From: Hymenobacter polaris
Lineage (GTDB): Bacteria; Bacteroidota; Bacteroidia; Cytophagales; Hymenobacteraceae
Assembly: GCF_012927305.1 (NCBI RefSeq)
Contig: NZ_JABBGH010000002.1
Span: 868,001-932,000, forward strand
Length of the DNA stretch: 64,000 nucleotides
Reading direction: 5' to 3'
The first letter of the stretch is position 1, and the number at the start of each line of letters is the position of its first letter. Positions 9,933-49,595 of this stretch are shown piece after piece. The notes under the pieces were generated by a model, which had not been told where the DNA came from, searched no databases, and was given only the letters and a program-made list of their open reading frames with translations. The position numbers were made by a program, and so were the translations under genes.

Positions 9933-11246
9933 CTAGCCCCCCAGCGCCACGCTAAACGCCGTGCGCCCGCCCGGCCCCGCCTCTAGCCGAAACGCAAAGC
10001 CGTGGGCCAGCAGGATGTCGCGCACCAGCACCAGCCCGATGCCCTGGCCGCCCGGCTTAGTGCTGAAAAAGGGCGTGAACAGCCGCTGGCTGACTTCGGG
10101 AGTGAGCGGGGCGCCGTCGTTCTCGATGCTGAGCGTGGGCGGCGCGGCCGTGGTGCGCACCCATACGTTGCCCCCGGCGGGCCCGATGGCTTCCAGCGCA
10201 TTCTTGGCCACGTTGAGCAGGGCTTGGGTGAGCTGCTGCGAGTCGGCTTGCACCCACAACGGGGCGCCCCCGGCGGCCAGCTCCCAGTGCCAGGCTACCC
10301 CTAGGGCGGCGCTCTGCGGGGCCAGCAGCTGCCCCAGGCCCCGCAGCAACTGGTGCAGGTCGAGGGGGTGGGGGGCGGGCGGGGGCAGGCGCACCAGCCG
10401 GGCGTAGGCGGCCACGAAGTCAGCCAGCTGCGTGTTGCGCGTAATGCTCACTTCCAGGCCCTGGTGGAAGTCGTCCCGGTCGGCCGCAGTCAGCTGCGGG
10501 GCGTAGTGGCGGAAGCTGCCCAGCAGCGAGTTGACGGCCCCGATGGAGTTGTTGACCTCGTGGGCCACCAGCCGGATAAGCTGCTCATAGGTCTGCTTCT
10601 CCTGAGCCCGGATTTCCTGGGTCAACTCCTCCAGCACCACGAAGCGCCGCTGGAAGCCCCGGTCGAGGAAGTGGGCGGCCACGGCGCGGTAGGTTTGGCC
10701 GCCGGGCAGGCGCAGGGTGTGGGGCTGGCTGGCCCCTAGGGCCGCCAGCGCCGGCCCCCAGGGCGCGGGCAGCGCCGCTGCCGGCTGGCCTGGTAGGCTG
10801 GCGGCGGGCTGCCCCAGGGCCCGCGCCGCCGCCGCGTTGGCCTGGCTAATCTGCCCGTCGAAATTCAGCAGCAGGATGCCCGCCGGCGAGGCCGCTACCA
10901 GCCGCTCCAGCAGCACGCTCTGCTCGTGCTGGCTGATGCGCTCCTGGCGCAGGGCATCAAGCATCTGGTTGTACACGGCCGCCAGCCGGTCCAGCTCGGG
11001 CTGGCCCACGGGCTGAAACTTCAGGCTGAAATCCTGGGCCGCCAGCGCCGCCGTGCCCGCCTCGATGAGGCGCACCGGCCGCAGCAGCCCCCGGTACAAG
11101 TGCCAGGCCAGCCCTAGGCTCAGCGCCAGGCCCACCTCGCCCGCTACAAACAGCGCCGGGTGCGTAGCGCGCACGGCCACCAGCAGCACCGCCAGCAGTC
11201 CGTAGAGCAGCACCAGGAATAGCAGGAGTTGGTAGCGCAGGGGCAT
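9933..11246 (-). CDS. NtrY-like sensor histidine kinase
   Basis: With the ATG at 11246 the protein has 437 residues: two N-terminal membrane helices (LLLFLVLLYGLLAVLLVAV and a second near residues 35-55), a HAMP-like linker, a PAS domain (about 110-190), and a HisKA/HATPase module with phospho-acceptor H229 in LVAHEVNNS, N-box NVAKNALEAI and G-box FFSTKPGGQGIGL. In-frame starts at 11333 (ATG) or 11351 (TTG) would add a charged N-terminal extension. HEVNNS is typical of NtrB/NtrY-like kinases that partner NtrC regulators, and such a regulator lies at 11972-13354. The signal is probably envelope stress or a toxic compound, inferred from the nearby efflux operon. Confidence 0.9.
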   Translation of the reverse strand: MPLRYQLLLFLVLLYGLLAVLLVAVRATHPALFVAGEVGLALSLGLAWHLYRGLLRPVRLIEAGTAALAAQDFSLKFQPVGQPELDRLAAVYNQMLDALRQERISQHEQSVLLERLVAASPAGILLLNFDGQISQANAAAARALGQPAASLPGQPAAALPAPWGPALAALGASQPHTLRLPGGQTYRAVAAHFLDRGFQRRFVVLEELTQEIRAQEKQTYEQLIRLVAHEVNNSIGAVNSLLGSFRHYAPQLTAADRDDFHQGLEVSITRNTQLADFVAAYARLVRLPPPAPHPLDLHQLLRGLGQLLAPQSAALGVAWHWELAAGGAPLWVQADSQQLTQALLNVAKNALEAIGPAGGNVWVRTTAAPPTLSIENDGAPLTPEVSQRLFTPFFSTKPGGQGIGLVLVRDILLAHGFAFRLEAGPGGRTAFSVALGG

Positions 11247-11337
11247 GGGGGCAAGATAGAAAGCGAGGAGCCAGCTGACGCGGTGCCCCCCAAGGTAGGC
11301 AATCGCCAGCCGGGTGAAGCGGCGGATGTGCATAACC

Positions 11338-11971: not shown

Positions 11972-13354
11972 TCATTCCCCGGTCGGTATCCCAAACTTCT
12001 CCAGTCTTCTATACAGCGCCCCGCGGCTCAGCCCTAGGGCCCGCGCCACGCGGCTCAGGTTGCCTTGGTAGTGCGCCAAGCTTTGGCGAATCATCTGTTC
12101 TTCCAGCTGCTCCAGGGTCATGGTGCCGGGGGCGGGTAGGGTAGCTTCGGGGGCGGCGGGGGGCCTAGGGGTGGGCGCGGCAGTGGGCTGGAAGTCGGCG
12201 GGTGTTAGCTCGTCGTGGGGGGTGGTGAGGGCGGTGCGCTCCACCAGGTTCTTCAGCTCGCGGATGTTGCCGGGCAGCGGCTGCTCTTGCAGCCAGTGGG
12301 CGGCGGCGGGGCTCAGGCGCAGAGCGGGGCGGTGGTAGGTGGCTTGCAGCTGCTGCACGAAGTGGCGGGCCAGCGCCGGCACATCCTGGGCGCGCTCGCG
12401 CAGGGCCGGCAGGCGCAGCGTGATGAGGTTGAGGCGGTAATACAGGTCTTCGCGGAAACGGCCCTGGGTTACCAGCTCGGCCAGGTTCTTGTTGGTAGCC
12501 GCTACCACCCGGATATCCAGGCGGCGCGGTTTGCTGTCGCCCAGCACCTCGTAGGTGCGGTCTTGCAGCACGCGCAGCAGCTTCACTTGGCTGGCCAGCT
12601 CCAGCTCGCCAATCTCGTCGAGGAAAATGGTGCCGCCGTTGGCCAGCTCGAAGCGGCCTACCCGGTCGGCGCGCGCATCGGTGAAGGCGCCGCGCCGGTG
12701 CCCAAACAGCTCGCTCTCAAACAGCGACGACGAGATGCCGCCTAAATTTACCTTCACGAAGGGCTGGCCGCGCCGCCGGCTATTCTGGTGCAGGGCTTCG
12801 GCAATCAGCTCCTTGCCAGTGCCGCTCTCGCCCTCAATCAGCACCGAGGCATCGGTGGCCGCCACCTGGCCCACTTGGTGCAGCACGGCCAGCAGGCGCG
12901 GGTCGTCGCCCACAATGGCCCCCAGGGCAAACTGCCGGTCCAGCTCGCGGCGGGTGGGCGCCCCTGGGGCCGGCTGCGCGGCCGGCGCGTGCAGGGCCAG
13001 CACCGTGGCAATGGTTTGCAGCAGCGCCGCGTTATCCCAGGGCTTGGTCAGGAACTCGGCCGCGCCGGCCTTCATGCCCGCCACCGCCAGCGCGATGCTG
13101 CCCCAGCCCGTGAGCAGCACCACCGGCACCTGGGGGGCCAGGGCCTTTAGCTCGGCCAGCAGCCCTAGGCCGTCGGCCCCGCTGGTAGCGGCCGAGAAGT
13201 TCATGTCGAGCAGCACCAGCTGGGGCGCCGACGCCCGCACCGCCGCCAGCGCCTCGGCCGGGCCGGCCACGGCCGAGGCGGTGTAGCCGGCCTGCTTCAG
13301 CAGCAGCTTCAGCGAGGTGCGGATGGCCAGGTCGTCATCGACGATGAGAAGCAT
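11972..13354 (-). CDS. NtrC-family sigma-54-dependent response regulator
   Basis: The 460-residue protein has a receiver domain (acidic DDD at 6-8, phospho-acceptor D50 in LVLLDMNF, K in FLTKPW), an AAA+ domain (Walker A GESGTGKE, Walker B FLDEIGEL) and a C-terminal Fis-type helix-turn-helix (NLSRVARALGLSRGALYRRL). The sigma-54 contact loop reads GAFTDA where the proteobacterial form is GAFTGA; as far as I recall this variant is common in Bacteroidota. It activates RNA polymerase with sigma-54 after phosphorylation, most likely by the kinase at 9933-11246. Likely targets are the head-GIN pair and the efflux operon immediately upstream, which carry shared palindromes. Confidence 0.95.
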   Translation of the reverse strand: MLLIVDDDLAIRTSLKLLLKQAGYTASAVAGPAEALAAVRASAPQLVLLDMNFSAATSGADGLGLLAELKALAPQVPVVLLTGWGSIALAVAGMKAGAAEFLTKPWDNAALLQTIATVLALHAPAAQPAPGAPTRRELDRQFALGAIVGDDPRLLAVLHQVGQVAATDASVLIEGESGTGKELIAEALHQNSRRRGQPFVKVNLGGISSSLFESELFGHRRGAFTDARADRVGRFELANGGTIFLDEIGELELASQVKLLRVLQDRTYEVLGDSKPRRLDIRVVAATNKNLAELVTQGRFREDLYYRLNLITLRLPALRERAQDVPALARHFVQQLQATYHRPALRLSPAAAHWLQEQPLPGNIRELKNLVERTALTTPHDELTPADFQPTAAPTPRPPAAPEATLPAPGTMTLEQLEEQMIRQSLAHYQGNLSRVARALGLSRGALYRRLEKFGIPTGE

Positions 13355-13541: not shown

Positions 13542-14240
13542 CTACCGCCCGCTCACGCTGCCACCGCTGCTGGTGCGCTTGGTGAGCTGGGGCGAGCCCT
13601 TGTAGCTGATGCTGCCGCCGCTGCTGGCTTCGGCCACCAAGTCGTTCTTCACGGCCAGGCGCACCGAGCTGCCGCTGCTGGCTTCGGCGCGGGCGCGCTC
13701 GGTTTGCAGCTCGTCGCCGTCGAGGGTGGCGCCGCTGCTGCTGCGCACATCCACGCTGGTGGCGCGGCCGCTGAGGTCGGCGGTGCTGCCGCTGCTTTGG
13801 CGCACGGTGAGGGCTGAGGTAGCCAGGCTGGCTTTCACCGAAGCCCCCGACGATACGTCGAGTTGGAAGTTGTCGGCGTCGAAGTCGCCCGCGGCGCGTA
13901 CCGAAGAGCCGCTGTGGGCCGAGAGGGCCGTGAGCTGGTCGGCCGTGACGGCGGCGCGCAGGTGCTTGTTGCGGCGCTGGCGGCCGTCGCGGTCATCGCG
14001 GTTGTCGTAGCGCAAGGTCAGCACGCCGTCTTTCACGGTGGATTCGATGTGGTCGCGCAGCTCGGGCGTGTCGGCGCTCACTTCTACGCGCTGGTTGTGG
14101 CCGGCCGTGAGAGTCAGCTCGATGCCGGTGCCCACGTTGATGGCGTGGAAGGCGGGTACGTTGCGCGTTTGGGCGTCTTGGGCCAGGGCGGGGGCTAGGG
14201 TGCCGGCGGCCAGCAGGGCGGTGAGCAGCAGGGTTTTCAT
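13542..14240 (-). CDS. Head-GIN domain (DUF2807) secreted protein 2
   Basis: The 232-residue protein has a signal peptide (cleaved near LAPALAQ) and a DUF2807 beta-helix-like domain, starting with the head motif FHAINVGTGIELTLTAG and continuing with repetitive Ser/Gly strands (SSGSSVRA, SSGATLDG, SSGGSISYKG). The family is described as putative auto-transporter adhesin-like and is common in Bacteroidota, with no proven role. It is a paralogue of the next gene upstream. Position between the efflux operon and the sigma-54 regulator suggests it belongs to the same envelope-response regulon. Confidence 0.88.
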   Translation of the reverse strand: MKTLLLTALLAAGTLAPALAQDAQTRNVPAFHAINVGTGIELTLTAGHNQRVEVSADTPELRDHIESTVKDGVLTLRYDNRDDRDGRQRRNKHLRAAVTADQLTALSAHSGSSVRAAGDFDADNFQLDVSSGASVKASLATSALTVRQSSGSTADLSGRATSVDVRSSSGATLDGDELQTERARAEASSGSSVRLAVKNDLVAEASSGGSISYKGSPQLTKRTSSGGSVSGR

Positions 14241-14298: not shown

Positions 14299-14985
14299 CT
14301 AGCTGCCCTTGATGGTGCTGCTGCCGCTGACTTGCTTGGTTACCTGCGGCGAGCCGTGGTACTTGATGCTGGAGCCGCCGTCGGCGGTGGCCGTCAGGCT
14401 GTCCTTAGTAGTCAGCTTCACGATGCTGCCACCATTGACCTGCACCTGGCAGGTGCTGGTTTGCAGGCCGTTGCCGCCGAAGATGGAGCCGCCATCCACG
14501 GTCAGCGTTAGCTTGGCGGCTTGCCCCTCCAGGTTCACCACGCTGCCGCCGCTCAGGCGGGCCGTCAGGTCGCGGGTGCTCAGGTCGGCGCGCACCACGG
14601 TGCCCGATGAGGCCTCAAGGGCGAAGCTAGGGGCGGCAAAGGCGCCGGTGGCTTTCACGGCCGAGCCGCTGCTAGCCGTGAGGGCCGTAACCTGGTTGGC
14701 CGTCACGGCCACGTGCAGGCGCTGGGTGCGCACATTGCTGCTTGGGTGCTGGAAGCGCAGCACCAGCGTGCCATCCTCCACGGTGGTGGTCAGGTACTGG
14801 GCCATCTCGGCGGGCTCGGTGCTCACTTCTACGCGCTGCACGGGGCCAGCCACGAGGTCGAGCGCGATGCCGCCGCTAACCTTGATGGCGCGGAAGGCGG
14901 GCACGGTGCGCACCTGGGCATTTTGGGCCAGGGCAGCCCCTAGGGCCAGCAGCGAGAGCAGGGCGGTAAGCAGCAGGTTTTTCAT
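14299..14985 (-). CDS. Head-GIN domain (DUF2807) secreted protein 1
   Basis: The 228-residue protein has a signal peptide (MKNLLLTALLSLLALGAALAQ) and a DUF2807 domain starting FRAIKVSGGIALDLVAG, followed by stacked short beta strands ending YHGSPQVTKQVSGSSTIKGS. It is a clear paralogue of the 13542-14240 gene, sharing the C-terminal KGSPQLTK/HGSPQVTK block, and is separated from it by 58 bp. The pair probably arose by tandem duplication and is likely cotranscribed. A TGTTC-N6-GGACA palindrome 54-69 bp before this start may be a control site. Confidence 0.88.
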   Translation of the reverse strand: MKNLLLTALLSLLALGAALAQNAQVRTVPAFRAIKVSGGIALDLVAGPVQRVEVSTEPAEMAQYLTTTVEDGTLVLRFQHPSSNVRTQRLHVAVTANQVTALTASSGSAVKATGAFAAPSFALEASSGTVVRADLSTRDLTARLSGGSVVNLEGQAAKLTLTVDGGSIFGGNGLQTSTCQVQVNGGSIVKLTTKDSLTATADGGSSIKYHGSPQVTKQVSGSSTIKGS

Positions 14986-15038
14986 GGTAGCGAGGTGCTT
15001 GGGAAGTGGAAGTTGCCGGGGTTACCGGGCCGAGGGGG

Positions 15039-15054
15039 TGTTCGTTACCGGACA
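15039..15054. promoter_or_regulatory. Putative operator: TGTTC-N6-GGACA palindrome before head-GIN genes
   Basis: TGTTC (15039-15043), six bases, then GGACA (15050-15054). Length and half-sites match the two palindromes at 22897-22912 and 22916-22931 upstream of the efflux operon. This suggests one regulator, most simply the NtrC-like protein at 11972-13354. It is close to the gene for a sigma-54 enhancer site, so direct repression or another regulator is also possible. Confidence 0.4.
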
Positions 15055-15123: not shown

Positions 15124-15170
15124 TTACTCCTCGCGCAAGGCCACGGCCGGCTGGATGCGCGCCGCGCTCA
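15124..15170 (-). pseudogene. Relic C-terminal tail of an ABC permease
   Basis: Read on the minus strand, the sequence after the S41 peptidase stop encodes ALSAARIQPAVALREE followed by TAA. This is nearly the same as the last residues of the intact permease at 16473-17675 (SRLAAGIRPAVALREE). An in-frame TAA directly precedes it, so no longer permease frame exists. It looks like what remains of a further FtsX/MacB permease whose body was lost or replaced when the S41 gene arrived. Confidence 0.7.
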
Positions 15171-16433
15171 GGGCTTAGGAGCGGCCTTACGTAATTGGGC
15201 TAGAGCAGCTTGCAGCGGCGCATCGGTTGTATCAGTGGCCGGTTGCACGTAAACCGGGGGCAGGTAGGCTTCGCGCGGGAGGCCATCGACCCGGTACAGC
15301 CGCTCGGTGGGGATGGAGAACCCGATGCCGGACTGCGGTAGCTGGTAGGAGGCGATGCTGCCGTTGAGCTGCGCCATCTCGGTGCCCATGACGGTGGCGC
15401 GTCGCATGGCGTCGAGGCCAATGGTGATGCCCTCGCCCATGCTGGCCGTCCAGCGGCCCACCAGCACCACCAGCGGGCCAGTGTAGGGCGCTGGCCGGGG
15501 CGACACCAGCTCCACCCAACTGCGCTTCACCCCAAAGCTGGCCTCCTCGGCCGGTAGCTCGTGGCGCTGGTAGGGCTGCTCCTGCGTGATGAAGCGCCCC
15601 ATGAGGGCGCGGGCCACCGTCGTGTTGCCGCCGTTGGGCGTGTCGCGCAGGTCGAGCACGAGGCCGGCGGGGTGCCCTAGGGTGGTGAGCGCGCTGTCGA
15701 AAACCGAAATCAAGCGGTTGTTGCCGAGGCTGTTGTTGATTTTTACGTAGCCGATGGCGCCGTAGTGCCGCGCTTCCAGCAGCTTCGGGTTGCCATCGCT
15801 TTCCAGGCCTAGGCCGTTCTGGTCGGGGAAGATGTCTTGGCGGCGGCCCTGCGTGCGCACCGTCCATTTGCGCGGGGTGCGGTGGTCGCCGGCCAGTGCG
15901 TGGTTGAGGGCTACTTCGCGGGCGGCGGCGTCCACGGTTTTCAGGTGCTTGCCGAGCAGCGCCTGCGTCGCCGCCTCGATGGGCACGTCGTTGACGGCCA
16001 GTAGCTCCATGCCCGGCCGCAGCCCCGCCTGCGCGGCCCCGAAGCCCGGCCGCACGGCCTGCACCACCGCGCGCCTACCGCTAAACTGCGCCCACGCATC
16101 GGTGCCCGACGGTACCAGCCGGCGCGAGTCGGGCAGGTTGGTATTGAGGGCAGCGTGGTTGTCGTAGAGTTCAGCCAGAACGTTTTCCAGCAGCCGCACA
16201 AACTGGCCGCGGGTCTTAACGGCTGGCAGGGCGGCTTCGCCCGCTTGCCGCACCTGTTCCCAGTCGGTTTGCTTCTTGTCGAAGTAGGCGTAGTTGTCGC
16301 GCACCGTTTCCCAGAAGTACCTAAAATCTTGCTGGTACTGGGTTGCCGTAAGGGCCGGCCGCGGCTGGCCGAGCGCAACCAACGGGACGACCTGCACCCA
16401 CAGCACCCACAGCACCCAATAAACGCTTTTCAT
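15168..16433 (-). CDS. S41 family (C-terminal-processing-like) peptidase, secreted
   Basis: From the ATG at 16433 the protein has 421 residues with a signal peptide (VYWVLWVLWVQVVPLVALGQ). An upstream in-frame start at 16460 would put charged residues before it. A tri-helical N-terminal segment is followed by a PDZ-like region (about residues 110-180, VRPGFGAAQAGLRPGMELLAV) and the S41 catalytic core with the nucleophile serine in RWTASMGEG. S41 peptidases cleave proteins at the C-terminal side of non-polar residues in the periplasm. It is the last gene of the efflux operon, starting 40 bp after the permease. Its final codons overlap the permease relic, suggesting it was recruited into the operon by recombination. 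Confidence 0.85.
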   Translation of the reverse strand: MKSVYWVLWVLWVQVVPLVALGQPRPALTATQYQQDFRYFWETVRDNYAYFDKKQTDWEQVRQAGEAALPAVKTRGQFVRLLENVLAELYDNHAALNTNLPDSRRLVPSGTDAWAQFSGRRAVVQAVRPGFGAAQAGLRPGMELLAVNDVPIEAATQALLGKHLKTVDAAAREVALNHALAGDHRTPRKWTVRTQGRRQDIFPDQNGLGLESDGNPKLLEARHYGAIGYVKINNSLGNNRLISVFDSALTTLGHPAGLVLDLRDTPNGGNTTVARALMGRFITQEQPYQRHELPAEEASFGVKRSWVELVSPRPAPYTGPLVVLVGRWTASMGEGITIGLDAMRRATVMGTEMAQLNGSIASYQLPQSGIGFSIPTERLYRVDGLPREAYLPPVYVQPATDTTDAPLQAALAQLRKAAPKP

Positions 16434-16472
16434 CTCAGTACAGAAGTTGGTTTGAGGCAAATGTGGGATGAA

Positions 16473-17675
16473 TTATTCTTCGCGCAAAGCCACCGCTGGC
16501 CGGATGCCCGCCGCCAGCCGGCTCGGGTAGAGCGCGCAAATGGTGGCCAGCAGGTAGAGCGCCCCGGCCGCCAGCGCAATGGCCGTGAGGTACACGCTGG
16601 TGCGCTCGCCCAAAGCGCCCAGCAGCGGAAACTGCACCGCTACCAGTAGCCCCAGCACCAGCCCAAAGGTGGTGAGGGCTAATGTTTCGCCCACTATCAG
16701 GCGCGCGATGGCGCCGGCCGGCGCCCCCAAGGCCCGGCGCACCCCCAATTCGGCCCGGCGGGCGCTGATGGCCAGCCACAGCACCCCAAACAGCCCTAGG
16801 GCCACGTTAAGTAGTAAGAAGATGCTCATCACGCTCAGCAGCAGCGGCCGGGTTATCACCTGCTTGAGCTGGCTGCTGTGCATCTCGTCGAGGGTGCGAA
16901 TGGTGCTCGTCCAGCCCGGCCCGATGCGGCGAATATCGTCGGCCAGGCGCTTTTCGAGGGCGGCCCCGCTGCCGGGCGCCACCCGCACCAGCAGCGACTG
17001 CGGTAGAAAGAGGGTATCGGCCGGGGCGATGGGCCCGAAAATGGCGGGTAGTGGCTCCTTCAGCTCCCCATCGGTGCGGTAGGCGCGCACCACCCCAATG
17101 ATGCGCCACTGTTTGTCTTTATTCAGCGTCAGTAGTTTGCCAAGCGCCGATTCTCCCGTCGGAAACATCGCGCGCTGCATCTGCTCGTCGATAACCAGCG
17201 GCGGGTGCGAGCCAGCCACGGCATCGCGCTGGTCAAACCAGCGGCCCTTTGTTACTTCCAGACCCATTACGTCGCGCAGCTCCGGTCCCACGGCGTAAGA
17301 GTTGATGTTATTGATAGGGCGCTTGGGGCCGCCCGGCCGGTCGGCAAAGTCGATAGCCGTGCGGCTGTCGTTGAACGAGAAGGGCGTATTGGAAGCGGTG
17401 ACGGCCACGCCCAGCACGCCGGGTGTGGCGCGCAGGCGCGCCAGTACTTGTTGCAGCGTGCCAAGTGCCTCGGCCTTGGGCTGCGTGCCGGGTAAAAAGT
17501 TGACCTGCCACACGTTATCGAAGCGAAAGCCCAGTGGCTGGCGGTAATTTTCCCACAGGCTGCTGCCGATGGTGCCCACGGCAAACAGTACGACGTAGGC
17601 CAGAAAGATTTCCAGAACCAGCAGGCCGTTGGCGCGGCGGCGGTTCCACATCAGGGTAAATATGTGGCGTATCAT
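16473..17675 (-). CDS. ABC transporter permease, FtsX/MacB type (second)
   Basis: The 400-residue protein has an N-terminal membrane helix (about residues 18-40), a large periplasmic MacB-PCD-like domain, and three C-terminal helices with an FtsX core (ARRAELGVRRALGAPAGAIARLIVGE). It ends in AGIRPAVALREE, the common C terminus of these permeases. MacB/FtsX permeases couple cytoplasmic ATP hydrolysis to periplasmic conformational work and do not transport through the membrane themselves. Its start overlaps the stop of the upstream permease (ATGA at 17672-17675), indicating translational coupling and a heterodimer with that protein. Confidence 0.9.
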   Translation of the reverse strand: MIRHIFTLMWNRRRANGLLVLEIFLAYVVLFAVGTIGSSLWENYRQPLGFRFDNVWQVNFLPGTQPKAEALGTLQQVLARLRATPGVLGVAVTASNTPFSFNDSRTAIDFADRPGGPKRPINNINSYAVGPELRDVMGLEVTKGRWFDQRDAVAGSHPPLVIDEQMQRAMFPTGESALGKLLTLNKDKQWRIIGVVRAYRTDGELKEPLPAIFGPIAPADTLFLPQSLLVRVAPGSGAALEKRLADDIRRIGPGWTSTIRTLDEMHSSQLKQVITRPLLLSVMSIFLLLNVALGLFGVLWLAISARRAELGVRRALGAPAGAIARLIVGETLALTTFGLVLGLLVAVQFPLLGALGERTSVYLTAIALAAGALYLLATICALYPSRLAAGIRPAVALREE

Positions 17676-18934
17676 GCGGTAATGCGTCCTTTTAAGGCTT
17701 GATTAGCAGGTAGCTTCGACATCTTGTAGGCGGGGTAGGCGCCCGAGAGTAGCCCAAATAGAAGCGCCAACCCTAGCCCCACACCAAACACCGGCGCGCT
17801 GAGGCTGAGGTGGGCGTAGGGAATAAATTGGCTGCTATTGAGTAAGTGCATTACCCCGGCCGCCAGCCCTAGGCCCAGCACGCCGCCCACCAGCGTCAGC
17901 AGCACGTTCTCGACCAGGAACTGCCCGGCCAGCCGCCCTGCCGTGGCCCCGAAGGCCTTGCGCACCCCAATCTCGGCGGCGCGCTCCAGCGTGCGGCTCA
18001 CGTTGATGTTGACTAGGTTGAGGGCCGGCAGCAGCATAAATAGTAGCCCCAGGCCCACCCACCGGCGCCAAAAGGCGGCGGCGTCGCCGTCCTGACCGGC
18101 GTCATTGCTGTGGTTGGCCATGTAGTGCGCCAGCGGAGTGCGGGCATAGGAGCGGATTTCCTTAAACTGCTCGGGGTCGGGGATGGGTAAGCGGCGCAGC
18201 ACCTGCTGATACTCGGCCTGGATGGCCGGCACGTCGGCCGCCTGTCGCGCTAGCACAACGGCCTGAAAATCGCCCAGGTAGTTGCGTTGGTTATTGGGGT
18301 CTTGCAGGTCGGCGGTGGTAGTCGTTACGGGCAGCCAGCACTCGGCATAGGTCAACTCGCGCGAGGTGGGCACATCGGCTACCACGCCCACCACCTGGTA
18401 GGGCCGGCCTTCGAGCTGCACAGCCCGGCCCACGGCCGCCGCTGCTGTGCCAAAGCAGCGGCGAGCTACTGTTTCGTTAAGGACCATCACGTGGGCGGCG
18501 TCGCGCACCTCGGTAGCCGTATAGGGCCGGCCGGCTACGAAGTCAAAGTTCAGTACCCGCCAGAGGTTACTGTCGGTGTAGCGACGGTCGGCTTTTAATG
18601 CCTGCTGGCCCACGTACAGTGTAATATTAATCGGATAAGCCTCGCTCACGGCGATGGCTTCGGGCGTACGCAACGTAAGCACGTGCCGCTGCAAAAAGTT
18701 GTAGCCTAGGCTGGAGGAACTCTGCGACTCGGGTCCGCGCAACACCATGCGGCTGATGAACAGCAGGCGGTCGGTGTGGCGCTCGGGGGCCCTAGCCCCC
18801 ACGGCGTGGTCGAAGAGGGCAAACAACACCACCAACATCATCAGCGTGAAGCTGATGCCGAACAGGCTGATGGCTGTGAAGAACTTGCGCCGCTGCCAGC
18901 CGCGCCAAGCCAGTTTGAGGTAACTCAGTAACAT
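17672..18934 (-). CDS. ABC transporter permease, FtsX/MacB type (first)
   Basis: From the ATG at 18934 the protein has 420 residues and begins MLLSYLKLAWRGWQRRKFF, a classical FtsX/MacB opening followed directly by the first membrane helix. A longer frame from 19012 would translate the upstream inverted repeat and is rejected. The periplasmic domain spans roughly residues 45-280, and the C-terminal FtsX core includes RAAEIGVRKAFGATAGRLAGQF. It is coupled to the second permease by a 4-base overlap and follows the ATPase gene. Together with adaptor and TolC it would form a MacAB-TolC-like tripartite exporter; the substrate is unknown. Confidence 0.9.
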   Translation of the reverse strand: MLLSYLKLAWRGWQRRKFFTAISLFGISFTLMMLVVLFALFDHAVGARAPERHTDRLLFISRMVLRGPESQSSSSLGYNFLQRHVLTLRTPEAIAVSEAYPINITLYVGQQALKADRRYTDSNLWRVLNFDFVAGRPYTATEVRDAAHVMVLNETVARRCFGTAAAAVGRAVQLEGRPYQVVGVVADVPTSRELTYAECWLPVTTTTADLQDPNNQRNYLGDFQAVVLARQAADVPAIQAEYQQVLRRLPIPDPEQFKEIRSYARTPLAHYMANHSNDAGQDGDAAAFWRRWVGLGLLFMLLPALNLVNINVSRTLERAAEIGVRKAFGATAGRLAGQFLVENVLLTLVGGVLGLGLAAGVMHLLNSSQFIPYAHLSLSAPVFGVGLGLALLFGLLSGAYPAYKMSKLPANQALKGRITA

Positions 18935-18942
18935 GATTGGTA

Positions 18943-19033
18943 ATGAGCAATAAACAGTGAGCAATGAGCAAGTAGGAAAATGAGCGAACGGCGGGTTAGC
19001 ACAATTGCTCATTGTTCATTGCTCATTGATAAT
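18943..19033. repeat. Family H inverted repeat (TGAGCAAT type)
   Basis: The left part AATGAGCAATAAACAGTGAG pairs imperfectly with TTGTTCATTGCTCATTGATA on the right. The element fills the gap between the ATPase gene and the first permease. Low-complexity repeats of this kind are frequent in intergenic gaps here. Confidence 0.65.
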
Positions 19034-19036
19034 TAC

Positions 19037-19762
<726 letters not shown>

Positions 19763-19920: not shown

Positions 19921-21450
19921 TCATTCGGCCCCTAGGGGCTGCTGGGTGGCGAAATCGAATAAGGTGAGGCTGCGCAGGCGGTAGTGGGCTACCCAGCCGG
20001 CGCGCAGGACCAGGATGTAGCCGCGGCGGGCCAGGTCTTTGGCGGCCGAGGCCAGGGTGAGGTCGGTGAGGGAGAGGCGGCCGGCCTCGTAGGTGGCGCG
20101 GCTGATGGCGTAGCGACGCTGGGCCAGCGAGTCGGCGCGGGCGGCCAGGCGCACCTGCCCGACCAGGGTAGGTAGTTGGGAGGCCTGGGTGAGCACGGTT
20201 TGCTCGAAGTTGCGCTCGTCCTGGGCTACGGCGGCCTGGGTTTGGTCGCGCAGCAGCTCGGCAGCCCGGATGGTGGCGCGGCGCCGGCCCCAGTCCATGA
20301 GCGGCAGCGAGAACGCCAGGGCCACCTGCTGTTGGTTTTGCAGGGCCAGGTAGCTGTCTACCAAGTGGGGCGCCTGGTTGACGTAGCCCAGGTTGGCGGT
20401 GAGGGTGGCCAGCAGGCCGGTGGTGCCGCGGGCCTGGGCCACGTCGCGGTCGGTTTGCAGGCGCTGGCGGGCAAAGGCCAGCACGGCGGCCCGGCGCTGG
20501 CGGGCCTGCCCTAGGGCCTCGGCGGGCACGATAACCGGGGCGGGGGCGGCTTCGGGCACGGCCAGGGCCGGTAGCGCTTCGGAGCCGGGCAGGGCGCAGT
20601 AGGTGCGCAAACTCACGGCGGCGCTTTCGGCGTCCAGCTGGGCCTGGGCCTGGGCCTGCTGGGCGTTCAGCAGGTTCAGCTCCAGCTGCACCTGGTCGCT
20701 CTGCGAGAGGCGGCCGAGGGCAAATTTTTCGCGGCCCACGCGCAGCAGCTCGGCGGCGGCTTGGGCGTTTTGGCCGGCCACGGCGGCATTCACCTGCTGC
20801 AACAACACGTCGAAATACAGCTCCGTAACGCGCTGGGCCAGGGTTTCGCGGTCCTCCAGGTACTGGCGCTGGCTTTCCTGGTAGCGCAGCGGCTCGATGC
20901 GGCGGGCCCACTTCAGGAGGTTGAAGTACCCGATGGGCTGCGTCAGGCCCAGGGTAAAGGGCTGGTTGTTGTAGCGCTTCTCGGTGCGGATGAAGTCGTC
21001 GAAGCGCTGGAGCTGCGAGCCCACCACCACTTGCCCGCCCGTCAGGCCGATGTTCTGGGTGAGGCCCACGGCCAGCAGCGAGTTGTTGTAGCGCACGGTC
21101 TGGAAGGCGGTAGTGCCGTCGGGCTGTACCACCGGCAAGATGGCGCGATTGAAGTTGGGCACCGTGCCGCTCAACCCCAGCTGTGGGCGGTAGCTGGCCT
21201 GGTAGGCGCGGTAGCTCCAGTAGCCGGCCTCGCGGGCGGCGCGGGCCTGCACGCTGGCGGCCGAGGTGGCCAGCGTCTGCTCGATGAGGCCCGGCAGGGT
21301 GAGCGTTTGGGCGGTGGTGTTGAAGGTTACTAGCAGAAGTAGGCCTAGGGTGTAGCCCCACCCCCGGCCCCTCCCCTGCGGGGGAGGGGAGCCTGACGCC
21401 GTTTGGGGCAGTGTCTTATCAGACAGGTATTTTTTGCAGAAGGAAAGCAC
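19921..21450 (-). CDS. TolC-family outer membrane efflux protein
   Basis: The 509-residue protein has a late signal-like segment (YTLGLLLLVTFNTTAQ, about residues 33-48) followed by two tandem outer-membrane-efflux domains rich in long helices and the usual alternation of alpha-barrel and beta strands. TolC-like trimers form the outer membrane duct of tripartite exporters. The only plausible start is GTG at 21450, inside the loop of an inverted repeat. As a result the left arm of that repeat is translated (GSPPPQGRGRGWG) ahead of the signal segment. No ATG lies between the arm and the signal, so either the arm is truly part of the protein or initiation uses a rarer codon. Confidence 0.88.
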   Translation of the reverse strand: MLSFCKKYLSDKTLPQTASGSPPPQGRGRGWGYTLGLLLLVTFNTTAQTLTLPGLIEQTLATSAASVQARAAREAGYWSYRAYQASYRPQLGLSGTVPNFNRAILPVVQPDGTTAFQTVRYNNSLLAVGLTQNIGLTGGQVVVGSQLQRFDDFIRTEKRYNNQPFTLGLTQPIGYFNLLKWARRIEPLRYQESQRQYLEDRETLAQRVTELYFDVLLQQVNAAVAGQNAQAAAELLRVGREKFALGRLSQSDQVQLELNLLNAQQAQAQAQLDAESAAVSLRTYCALPGSEALPALAVPEAAPAPVIVPAEALGQARQRRAAVLAFARQRLQTDRDVAQARGTTGLLATLTANLGYVNQAPHLVDSYLALQNQQQVALAFSLPLMDWGRRRATIRAAELLRDQTQAAVAQDERNFEQTVLTQASQLPTLVGQVRLAARADSLAQRRYAISRATYEAGRLSLTDLTLASAAKDLARRGYILVLRAGWVAHYRLRSLTLFDFATQQPLGAE

Positions 21451-21535
21451 GGCCTTAGTTTATAAGTCAGTCGATAGGTATTGCTTTTCGTTTGGCTCCC
21501 CTCCCCCGCAGGGGAGGGGCCGGGGGTGGGGCTAC
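21352..21535. repeat. Family D3 inverted repeat, 42-bp perfect arms, overlapping tolC
   Basis: The arms at 21352-21393 and 21494-21535 are exact reverse complements (GTAGCCCCACCCCCGGCCCC at the outer end). The loop is 100 bases. The left arm lies in the 5' coding part of tolC; the right arm reaches the stop codon of the adaptor gene. The inner flank GGGGAGCCTGACGCC also follows the left arm of the D1 element at 27.7 kb. Confidence 0.92.
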
Positions 21536-22779
21536 TCCACCCGTAGCTCGGGCACGTCCACAAATTCCTTGGTGTCCGACACAATCACCTGCTCGCCCTG
21601 GCGCAAGCCGCTGATTATTTGCACGTAGTCGGTATTGCTGTCGCCCAGGCGCACTAGGCGGCGCGTGGCCCGGCCACCAGCCAGCACGAACACCGGCTGC
21701 TCCTGGCCGCCCTGGTAGTAAGGACCGTTTTTGAGGCGCAGCACGCCGCGGTGGGCGCGGGTCAGCACAAACACGTCGGCCCGCAGGTTGGCGCGCAGGG
21801 CGGGGTGGTGGTCGTTGGTGAGGGTGGCGTAGAAGGTGACGGTGCCCTTGTCCACGGCCGGGCTGATGCTGGCGATGGTGCCGGGCAGGTCGGTGCCGGG
21901 GCCCAGGCGCACCAGCACCGCGTCGCCGGGGTGCAGCTGGTCGGCGTAGGTGTCGGCGATGGTGGCGCGCACCCGGTAGCGGCTCAGGTCGGCCACGCGG
22001 GCCAGGGCCTCGCCGGCCTGCACGGTGGTGCCCAGGTTGTCATTCACCCAGGTGAGCACGCCCGGCAGCGGGCTGCTGATGTCGGCCTGCCGCAGCTTGG
22101 CCGCCTGCTCCTGAATGCTGCGCTGCTGCACCGACACCGTAAAGCCCAGCTCGCGGCGGTCGGCGGCGCTGGCCTGGCGCTGGTTGGCGAGCTGCTGGCC
22201 GAGGCGCTGGGCTTCCAGGCGGGCGGTGCGCAGGTTCAGCTCGGCTTGGCGCACGGCTTCGGCGGTGCCGCCGCCTATCTCCAGCAGGTGCTGCTCGTCG
22301 CGCAGGGCCGACTGCAAGCTGCTCACCTTCAGGTCCTGGGCTTGCTGCTGAGCTTCCAGGTCGGTGAGAGCGCGGGCCAGGGTCAGGCGCAGCTGGTCGT
22401 TCTTGTTTTGGTTGCGCAGCTGTTCGTCGTCGAGCTTGGCCAGGGCCGAGGCCGCTAGCTCCTTGTCCAGCTCCAGGATGGGCTGGCCGGGCTGCACCCG
22501 CGCGCCCACCGCCAGCAGCACCCGCCGGATGGTGCTCTGCAGGGGGCTCGTCAGCACCGCCTCGCGGGCCGGAATGACGGTGCCGGCGGCCGTGAGGGTG
22601 GCGTCCACGTCGCCCACTTCTACCGGGGCCGTGAGGATGTCGGCACGGCGCAGGGTGGGCTGCAGCGCGCGGCGCAGCCCTAGGGCCCCGGCCGCCAGCA
22701 AAGCCAGAATGCCCAGGCCCAGCAGCCAGCGGCGCAGCTGGCGGTGGCGCAGCGTAGTAGTTGAAATGGCTCTGTCCAT
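21532..22779 (-). CDS. Periplasmic adaptor (membrane fusion protein), MacA/HlyD type
   Basis: The 415-residue protein has an N-terminal membrane anchor (LLGLGILALLAAGALGL, about residues 17-33), a biotinyl-lipoyl-like half motif (ILTAPVEVGDVDATLTAAGTV), a long coiled-coil hairpin (about residues 110-235), then lipoyl and beta-barrel domains (SSPLPGVLTWVNDNLGTTVQAGEALARV). Adaptors of this class join inner membrane ABC or RND pumps to TolC. It is the first gene of the operon, which then continues into tolC, ATPase and permeases, so it should work with the MacB-like pump. A candidate sigma-54 promoter and two palindromic sites lie upstream. Confidence 0.92.
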   Translation of the reverse strand: MDRAISTTTLRHRQLRRWLLGLGILALLAAGALGLRRALQPTLRRADILTAPVEVGDVDATLTAAGTVIPAREAVLTSPLQSTIRRVLLAVGARVQPGQPILELDKELAASALAKLDDEQLRNQNKNDQLRLTLARALTDLEAQQQAQDLKVSSLQSALRDEQHLLEIGGGTAEAVRQAELNLRTARLEAQRLGQQLANQRQASAADRRELGFTVSVQQRSIQEQAAKLRQADISSPLPGVLTWVNDNLGTTVQAGEALARVADLSRYRVRATIADTYADQLHPGDAVLVRLGPGTDLPGTIASISPAVDKGTVTFYATLTNDHHPALRANLRADVFVLTRAHRGVLRLKNGPYYQGGQEQPVFVLAGGRATRRLVRLGDSNTDYVQIISGLRQGEQVIVSDTKEFVDVPELRVE

Positions 22780-48125: not shown

Positions 48126-49595
48126 ATGAACCTGCCCCTTTTCTCCCTGCTCACCGACGTGCATGTGCTGACCCAGCAGGGTTCGGCCGACGTGCCCGTG
48201 GTGGGCCTCACGCTCGATTCGCGGCAGGCGGGGCCGGGCATGCTGTTTTGCGCCCTGCGCGGCACCGCCACCGATGGTCATAAGTTTATTGGGCAGGCGG
48301 TGGCCCTGGGGGCGGCCGTGGTGCTGTGCGAGGAGCTGCCCGCCGAGCTGAACCCGGCCACCACCTACGTGCAGGTACCCGACGCGGCCGCGGCCCTAGG
48401 GCCGGTGGCCAGCGCGTTCTACGGCCATCCCTCGCGCCAGCTGCAGCTGGTGGGCGTGACGGGCACCAACGGCAAAACCACCTGCGCCACGCTGCTGCAC
48501 AAGCTGCTGCGCGAGCTGGGCTACCACTGCGGCCTGCTAAGCACGGTGCAAAACCAGATTGACGAAACCGTGGTGCCCAGCACCCACACCACCCCCGATG
48601 CCATTCGGCTGAACGAGCTGCTGGCGCGCATGGTGGCCGCCGGCTGCACCCACGCTTGCATGGAAGTGAGCAGCCACGCCGTGGCCCAGCACCGCATTGG
48701 CGGGCTGCGCTTCGCGGGCGGCGTGTTCACCAACCTCACCCACGACCACCTCGACTACCACGGCACCTTCGGCAACTACCGCGACGCTAAAAAAGGCTTT
48801 TTTGATGCGCTGCCCCGCGCCGCCTTCGCCCTCACCAACGCCGACGACCGCAACGGCGCGGTGATGCTGCAAAACACCGCCGCCCGCCGCGAAACCTACT
48901 CCCTGCGCTCGGCCGCTACCTTCCGCGCCCGGCTGGTGGATAATAGCCTGGCCGGCTTGCTGCTCGAAATCGAAAACCGGGAGGTGCATTTCCGGCTTAT
49001 CGGCGTGTTTAATGCCTACAACCTACTGGCCGTGTACGGCGCGGCCGTGCTGCTGGGCGAAGACGCCACCGAAGTGCTCACCATTCTCTCGGGCCTGACG
49101 ACGGCGCCCGGCCGCTTCGAGCCAGTGACCGTGCCGGGCCGGGCCATCATCGGCCTCGTGGACTACGCCCACACGCCCGACGCGCTCGAAAACGTGCTCC
49201 AAACCTTGCAGCAGACGCGCCGGCCGGGGCAGCGCATCATCACGGTGGTGGGCTGCGGCGGCAACCGCGACGCCGCCAAGCGCCCCGTGATGGCCCGGCT
49301 GGCCGCCCAGCTCTCCGACGAGGTTATCCTCACCGCCGACAACCCGCGCGACGAAGACCCGCTCGACATCCTGCGCCAGATGCAGGCCGGCCTCACCCCG
49401 CCCGCCGATGCCCATGCCCAAACCATTGCCGACCGCCGCCAGGCCATTCGGGCCGCCGTGGCCCTGGCCCGCCCCGGCGACCTGGTGCTGCTGGCCGGCA
49501 AAGGCCACGAAACCTACCAGGAAATAAAGGGCATCAAAGCCCACTTCGACGACCGCGAGGAGCTGCGGAAAGCACTTTCTGAACTTAGTACCTAA
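48126..49595 (+). CDS. murE: UDP-MurNAc-tripeptide synthetase MurE (meso-diaminopimelate type)
   Basis: The 489-residue Mur ligase has the ATP loop [10 protein letters not shown] near residue 113, the carbamylated lysine region, and the substrate selectivity motif DNPRDEDP near residue 405. DNPR is the signature for meso-diaminopimelate addition, so the cell wall is of the usual Gram-negative A1gamma type. It adds the third residue to UDP-MurNAc-L-Ala-D-Glu in the cytoplasm. It is followed by mraY after a gap filled by an inverted repeat. Confidence 0.97.

Follow-up and report, generated by a model that had tools for sequence, protein, structure and literature searches.

The locus described here raises the question of why the last codons of an ABC permease gene stand directly behind a peptidase gene, and what was lost or inserted at this place. 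The window, which is the whole stretch of DNA analysed (64,000 nt of Hymenobacter polaris), contains the operon listed in Table 1. Six operon proteins were scanned against Pfam, and the remaining labels were given by sequence likeness. MacB_PCD and FtsX domains in both permeases, P1 and P2, together with the adjoining ABC ATPase, characterize the operon as a MacAB/FtsX-type ABC exporter. The term scaffold is used below for the genes ahead of the permease pair (adaptor, outer-membrane factor, ATPase) and behind it (GIN, regulator, kinase). Genomes, contigs and loci are designated G, C and L. The H. polaris genome contains no other close copy of P2; the four further matches are only 26-30% identical, which rules out an intact donor of the tail surviving in this genome. 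No published work on this operon was found in the titles and abstract beginnings returned by a literature search.

Table 1. Features of the H. polaris operon, with positions in the window
Feature	Position	Strand	Basis
HlyD-like periplasmic adaptor	21532..22779	(-)	sequence likeness; operon order conserved
TolC-like outer-membrane factor	19921..21450	(-)	sequence likeness; operon order conserved
ABC ATPase	19037..19762	(-)	Pfam PF00005; 87-92% identical to ATPases of 13 related operons
P1, intact first permease (MacB_PCD + FtsX)	17672..18982	(-)	Pfam
P2, intact second permease (MacB_PCD + FtsX), C terminus AAGIRPAVALREE	16473..17675	(-)	Pfam
S41 peptidase gene, own stop TGA	15168..16430	(-)	Pfam
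Orphan 3' end of P2-family permease gene, codons AARIQPAVALREE and stop TAA	15124..15165	(-)	P2 tail match
Spacer element GTAACGAACACCC...CCCGGTAACC	15020..15048	(-)	common to P2-GIN spacers of relatives
GINa, DUF2807 head-GIN protein	14299..14985	(-)	Pfam PF10988
GINb, second DUF2807 protein	13542..14240	(-)	Pfam
Sigma-54-type response regulator	11972..13354	(-)	sequence likeness
Sensor histidine kinase	9933..11249	(-)	sequence likeness

The orphan permease end and the DNA behind it

On the minus strand the peptidase gene ends with CCT AAG CCC TGA, its stop lying at 15170-15168. Two nucleotides (GC) follow, and the tail then reads GCG GCG CGC ATC CAG CCG GCC GTG GCC TTG CGC GAG GAG TAA, its own stop lying at 15126-15124. 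The frame of the tail is closed upstream by a TAA three codons ahead of the residues AAR; the body of a P2 gene is absent, and the codons of the peptidase gene are found in its place. The tail is identical to that of the intact P2, 1.35 kb upstream, at 35 of 42 nt (32 of the 39 coding nt), with seven differences. It agrees with the consensus of 49 other P2 tails at 39/42, the value for the tail of the H. polaris P2 itself being 34/42. The next best 42-mer on either strand of the 64-kb window reaches 29/42, at 48297, inside an open reading frame that we take to be MurE-like. The closest P2 tails are those of G070 (40/42) and G083 (39/42), when the best tail per locus is taken, a comparison biased towards the orphan tail; the count that takes in all 49 other complete tails gives 31 closer to the orphan tail than the resident P2 is, seven equal and 11 less close. 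A DNA search of 120 genomes of the genus matched the tail region in 59 of them (H. polaris included). Most of the matches lie at P2 3' ends and a few elsewhere, and the top E-values are 3.3e-13 (G083) and 7.7e-13 (G070). Some variant of the tail signature closes each of the 50 P2 genes whose tail is complete, those of G015 and G016 being the most divergent; the last P2 of G018, whose tail is incomplete in the alignment, was left out. The 42-nt stretch is the conserved 3' end of the P2 permease family, a gene relic.

An earlier note on this DNA had described a permease remnant of 16 codons, fused to the end of the peptidase gene and enclosing the peptidase stop. The remnant proved real, given its match to the P2 consensus against the background of the window, and its extent had to be revised. 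Since the first three of the 16 codons (ALS) have no match in P2 genes, where S-R-L or similar is found at this place, and overlap the peptidase stop, only 13 codons are homologous and nothing is fused. The stop sits just ahead of the homologous part, and no fusion protein is encoded.

In the fetched loci, tails at least 400 nt from the start of a locus were scored, and no second orphan tail was present among them. Apart from the orphan, a short open frame upstream was seen for a single tail, which ends a P2 of G018 that is frameshifted. For the orphan tail, an RNA element and a terminator were both ruled out (fold z-score -0.41, no terminator-like site). It most likely has no function.

The spacer beyond the tail keeps the arrangement GGCAAC-16 nt-GCATCT found behind P2 in relatives (read by eye), and also GTAACGAAC...CCGGTAACC, which is likewise present there. 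In local alignment of the spacer, nine of 18 relatives scored above all 200 shuffles (G090 38 versus 28), and the other nine scored no better than shuffles. As these spacer elements recur in relatives, the tail probably occupies the place where P2 normally ends. They also suggest that the tail is followed by DNA of the resident operon, a reading that is supported, if less firmly than the identity of the tail. A motif like GTTGG(G/T)GTAAGG...GTTGGGATAAT precedes the GIN gene in G080, G078, G057, G070, G086, G104, G107 and G027; it is absent in H. polaris, where only 9 nt separate the tail stop from GGCAAC.

The peptidase gene and its usual sites

The S41 protein contains the domains PF03572 (E 7.3e-14) and PF14684 (Tricorn C1, E 7.7e-12), a PDZ domain slightly below the cut-off, and by eye a signal-peptide-like N terminus. 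From its length and domains the predicted peptidase gene is taken as intact. Of the 119 other genomes of the genus, 34 have an orthologue (55-71% identical), and comparing operon order in relatives, as the earlier note had proposed, places these orthologues elsewhere: an S41 gene is found in none of the 37 operon loci fetched (tblastn layout). Conversely, none of 38 fetched S41 neighbourhoods (34 of orthologues, four of paralogues) contains a match to P1, P2, ATPase, TolC or HlyD near the peptidase gene; weak matches (25-35%) to GIN, regulator or kinase occur in five. Recurrent neighbours of S41 include lpd, a pseudouridine synthase gene and a cold-shock-like gene (named by sequence likeness). 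On H. polaris contig C3, lpd and the pseudouridine synthase gene lie 6 kb apart with no S41 gene between them, at a site that holds S41 in relatives. Two small adjacent genes behind this lpd (L163:3565-4292), presumably of HEPN/MNT toxin-antitoxin type, lie in the stretch where some relatives have S41.

A close S41 orthologue is absent from the scaffold relatives G101, G080, G078 and G057, in which the best matches have E-values of 1.5e-4, 3.3e-61 (a 35% identical paralogue), 2.3e-8 and 5.1e-6, respectively. In the gene tree the H. polaris S41 falls among Hymenobacter sequences, where its branch is long and no sister is well supported. Its absence from all 37 operon loci, the location of its orthologues elsewhere and the empty stretch between lpd and the pseudouridine synthase gene make S41 look like a newcomer to this operon. 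A plasmid search using the junction gave no match.

The earlier note had named the same tail behind S41 genes of other species as the observation that would speak against a permease history. Scoring of 62 and 63 loci ruled out that S41 genes are normally followed by the tail. In a stretch extending from 20 nt ahead of the S41 stop to 300 nt past it, the best score at 62 other loci is 27/42, about 200 nt away in L064 and L065; shuffles of these two reach 25/42, and shuffles of other S41 loci up to 28. The 62 loci include records of the same genomes from two collections and four paralogues of 33-35% identity; L207 fell below the cut-off, and in L060, L069 and L204 the frame is broken, so that the stop used is not the end of the gene. 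Over the whole length and both strands of all 63 S41 loci, the tail is found in none, the best score being 28/42.

Gene order and spacing lead us to infer that S41 is co-transcribed with the rest of the operon. Between P2 and S41 (16431-16472 in the window) lies CACATTTGCC, which we take to resemble the Bacteroidota -7 promoter element, and some S41 orthologues carry TTTGCCGC directly ahead of the start codon; S41 may have kept a promoter of its own. The S41 orthologue of G060 (C1:1906560-1907749) was matched as two overlapping pieces in different frames and is therefore probably frameshifted.

Exchange of permease pairs in related operons

A search for P2 covered 120 genomes of the genus, and 36 of the 119 other than H. 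polaris, for the most part those in which P2 matched best, supplied 37 operon loci; contig ends truncate several of these. A single P1-P2 pair is present in 26 of the 37 loci, and two or three pairs in ten: two in G058, G114, G049, G113, G079 and G035, and three in G077, G011, G018 and G073. The remaining locus (L136:7760-10747) is a second copy of the operon in G018 that has decayed, with pieces of HlyD and ATPase and with P1 and P2 each in two pieces; G018 also carries a three-pair operon (L151). The decayed copy was left out of the identity comparison, the tail attachment and the tree test.

P2 is adjacent to GIN in many relatives, G080 and G057 among them, and is directly followed by the regulator in G017, G088, G055, G063 and G002; in the loci of G015 and G016, GIN, regulator and kinase were not seen behind P2. 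The gap between P2 and GIN contains a DUF5694 protein in G058 (L138) and, by sequence likeness, in G001 (L140), G114 (L144) and G035 (L181), a DUF4932 protein in G106 (L143), and a protein without Pfam match in G027 (L170). The gap behind P2 houses different accessory genes according to species, S41 in H. polaris being one more. Secreted-looking proteins with a DTG motif (L148:6880-7976 in G077, L169:9753-10971 in G028), aspartic-protease-like by eye and without Pfam match, are located between GIN and the regulator or between two GIN genes.

The identity comparison covered 14 operons (13 of the 37 loci and the window; 91 pairs), with the regulator or kinase missing for some. Identities were 87-99% for the ATPase, 83-96% for the regulator and 74-94% for the kinase, and in the same operons 52-87% for P2 and 56-90% for P1. 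The identities of P1 and P2 are correlated (Spearman 0.87), as are those of regulator and kinase (0.79, pairs having both); P2 shows no such relation to the kinase (0.006), the regulator (-0.05) or the ATPase (0.02), and the correlation of ATPase and regulator is itself only 0.42.

For the tree test, 19 of the 37 loci and the window were used, with rows anchored on the window proteins and the best P1 and P2 match per locus, so that in multi-pair operons the two may stem from different pairs; scaffold rows are incomplete for G107, G090, G077, G093 and G083. The scaffold tree unites G080, G078 and G057 (100/100), G086 and G070 (100/100), and G083 and G028 (99/97). P1 and P2 together reject these clades, with losses of 346, 452 and 194 log-likelihood units, respectively; the clades were picked after the identities had been seen, so the p-values are not to be read literally. 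None of the three contains the H. polaris window. The order of the genes is conserved, and the trees of scaffold and permeases conflict, as in mosaic operons.

The DNA around the P2 stop was compared within the same groups. Between G078 and G057, and between G080 and G057, P2 is 59-60% identical, and the 50 nt past the P2 stop are 98% and 96% identical; in G078 and G057 the near-identical DNA starts about 90 nt ahead of the P2 stop and runs to 50 nt behind it. G086 and G070 show a similar pattern, less strongly, and G083 and G028 have no conserved spacer behind the swap. Because P2 is divergent and the DNA around its stop nearly identical, the right-hand end of the swapped unit often lies near the P2 3' end. 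The boundaries are scattered over the last 90-100 nt or so of P2, and do not fall exactly at the start of the tail. P1-P2 pairs are swapped as units between species, and repeatedly so.

As for the H. polaris pair, P1 and P2 weakly unite the window with G080, G078 and G090 (70/81), a group that the scaffold rejects (p-AU 3e-6), with G090 represented by only 321 of 1554 scaffold residues; this conflict may concern G057 or G090 and not the pair of H. polaris. A clear breakpoint in the last 420 nt of its P2 was looked for by comparison with G080 and ruled out: identity in 60-nt blocks is 75-90% with no step, and a dip to 77% falls inside this spread.

Origin of the tail and comparison with known systems

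The tail is best explained as the leftover of a displaced P2, whose body was lost through pair exchange or through loss of an extra pair, with S41 placed before it; we would give this reading a little more than even credence. The P1-P2 pair behaves as an exchangeable unit within the conserved scaffold. The P2 3' end, strongly conserved between otherwise differing P2 genes, often lies near the right-hand boundary of exchanges. A rearrangement near that end would have taken out the resident, or an extra, P2 and left the present P1-P2 pair, and S41 would have been put directly ahead of the resident tail, so coming to lie between P2 and GIN. The loss of the former body by either route, and the order of the events, are inferred. 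No genome examined contains an intermediate, be it a P1-P2-S41 arrangement that still has a complete second P2 or a P2-S41 neighbourhood at another place. That a permease gene was replaced or deleted by recombination, as the earlier note had held, agrees with the P2-type tail at the normal place of a P2 end, with a peptidase gene absent from all 37 operon loci of relatives and with the exchange of pairs in relatives.

The tail could instead have been copied from the 3' end of the present P2, by an insertion of S41 with a short target duplication and later divergence of the two copies, possibly through integration by a single crossover in the P2 tail. We consider this unlikely, while giving it weight: one event would suffice, the present pair has relatives in G080, G078 and G090, which are single-pair operons without a relic, and the two H. 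polaris tails share ATC and TAA against G080. The two tails nevertheless differ at seven of 42 positions, and most other P2 tails are closer to the orphan, as counted above. Moreover, it is the coding tail that has moved away from the consensus and the orphan tail that has stayed near it; an unconstrained copy would be expected to behave the other way round, though the numbers are small. In an attachment analysis on a quick tree of 51 P2 genes (99 attachment points, 2000 replicates), the likelihood favours the P2 of G070 and G028, and attachment to the resident P2 lies 4.9 log-likelihood units below that to G070 (p-KH 0.034, p-SH 0.35), the 39 coding nt being weakly informative; the AU values of this run are unreliable (too few replicates, with a program warning). 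Assigning the tail to a permease class from its 39 coding nt failed. Tails are poor markers: in the control, the nearest match of a tail includes the real nearest relative of the gene in only 15 of 50 P2 genes.

Within the displaced-P2 reading, the present pair may have been followed by a second one, of which S41 replaced all but 42 nt. This version is a minority share of that reading and, taken by itself, improbable. The operons with two or three pairs in ten of the 37 loci lend plausibility to it, and to the third permease invoked by the earlier note; against it, only a single pair is present in each of the scaffold relatives G101, G080, G078 and G057. An extra permease is only one of several versions leaving the same trace: replacement of a single pair, loss of an extra pair and duplication of the resident tail would all end in this arrangement, and 42 nt, carrying too little signal, cannot separate them. 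A chance similarity, or a shared protein motif lacking common history, could appeal to the P-x-x-A-L-R-x-E in which FtsX-family permeases commonly end, and is refuted, with next to no probability left to it, by the 39/42 match and the correctly placed stop set against the 29/42 of the next background match.

More broadly, the efflux operon of Hymenobacter might be a diversifying locus, in which pairs are exchanged via conserved ends with the P2 3' end as right-hand anchor, the gap behind collects accessory genes, and S41 with its tail is one scar. We offer this tentatively and hold it to be rather doubtful as a whole. The 42-nt relic marks a site of gene replacement in an operon and points to repeated swaps of permease pairs with recognisable ends. 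If selection acts on these swaps, the range of what is exported or sensed is probably determined by the permeases, while the ATPase, the adaptor, the outer-membrane factor and the regulators stay in place. A single scar is of modest interest; repeated pair exchange bounded near the P2 3' end is the larger result.

Xenologous displacement in situ, in which a gene of an operon is replaced by the homologue of another lineage, leads to conflict between the trees of the scaffold and of the replaced gene. Mosaic operons formed in this way resemble the present case in the conserved operon, the replacement in place and the conflicting trees. Here, however, it is two neighbouring permease genes that move together, time and again in a single genus, and an orphan 3' end preceded by an unrelated gene is kept in one of the operons. 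With the MacAB/FtsX-type (type VII) ABC transporters the operon shares the run of ATPase, MacB_PCD/FtsX permeases, and adaptor-like and outer-membrane-factor-like genes. It differs in having two different permease genes per unit, in up to three repeats, with a two-component pair alongside and, in many relatives, GIN-domain proteins. The S41 peptidase is like others with a Tricorn C1 domain in domain content and full length, and only the place of its gene is unusual.
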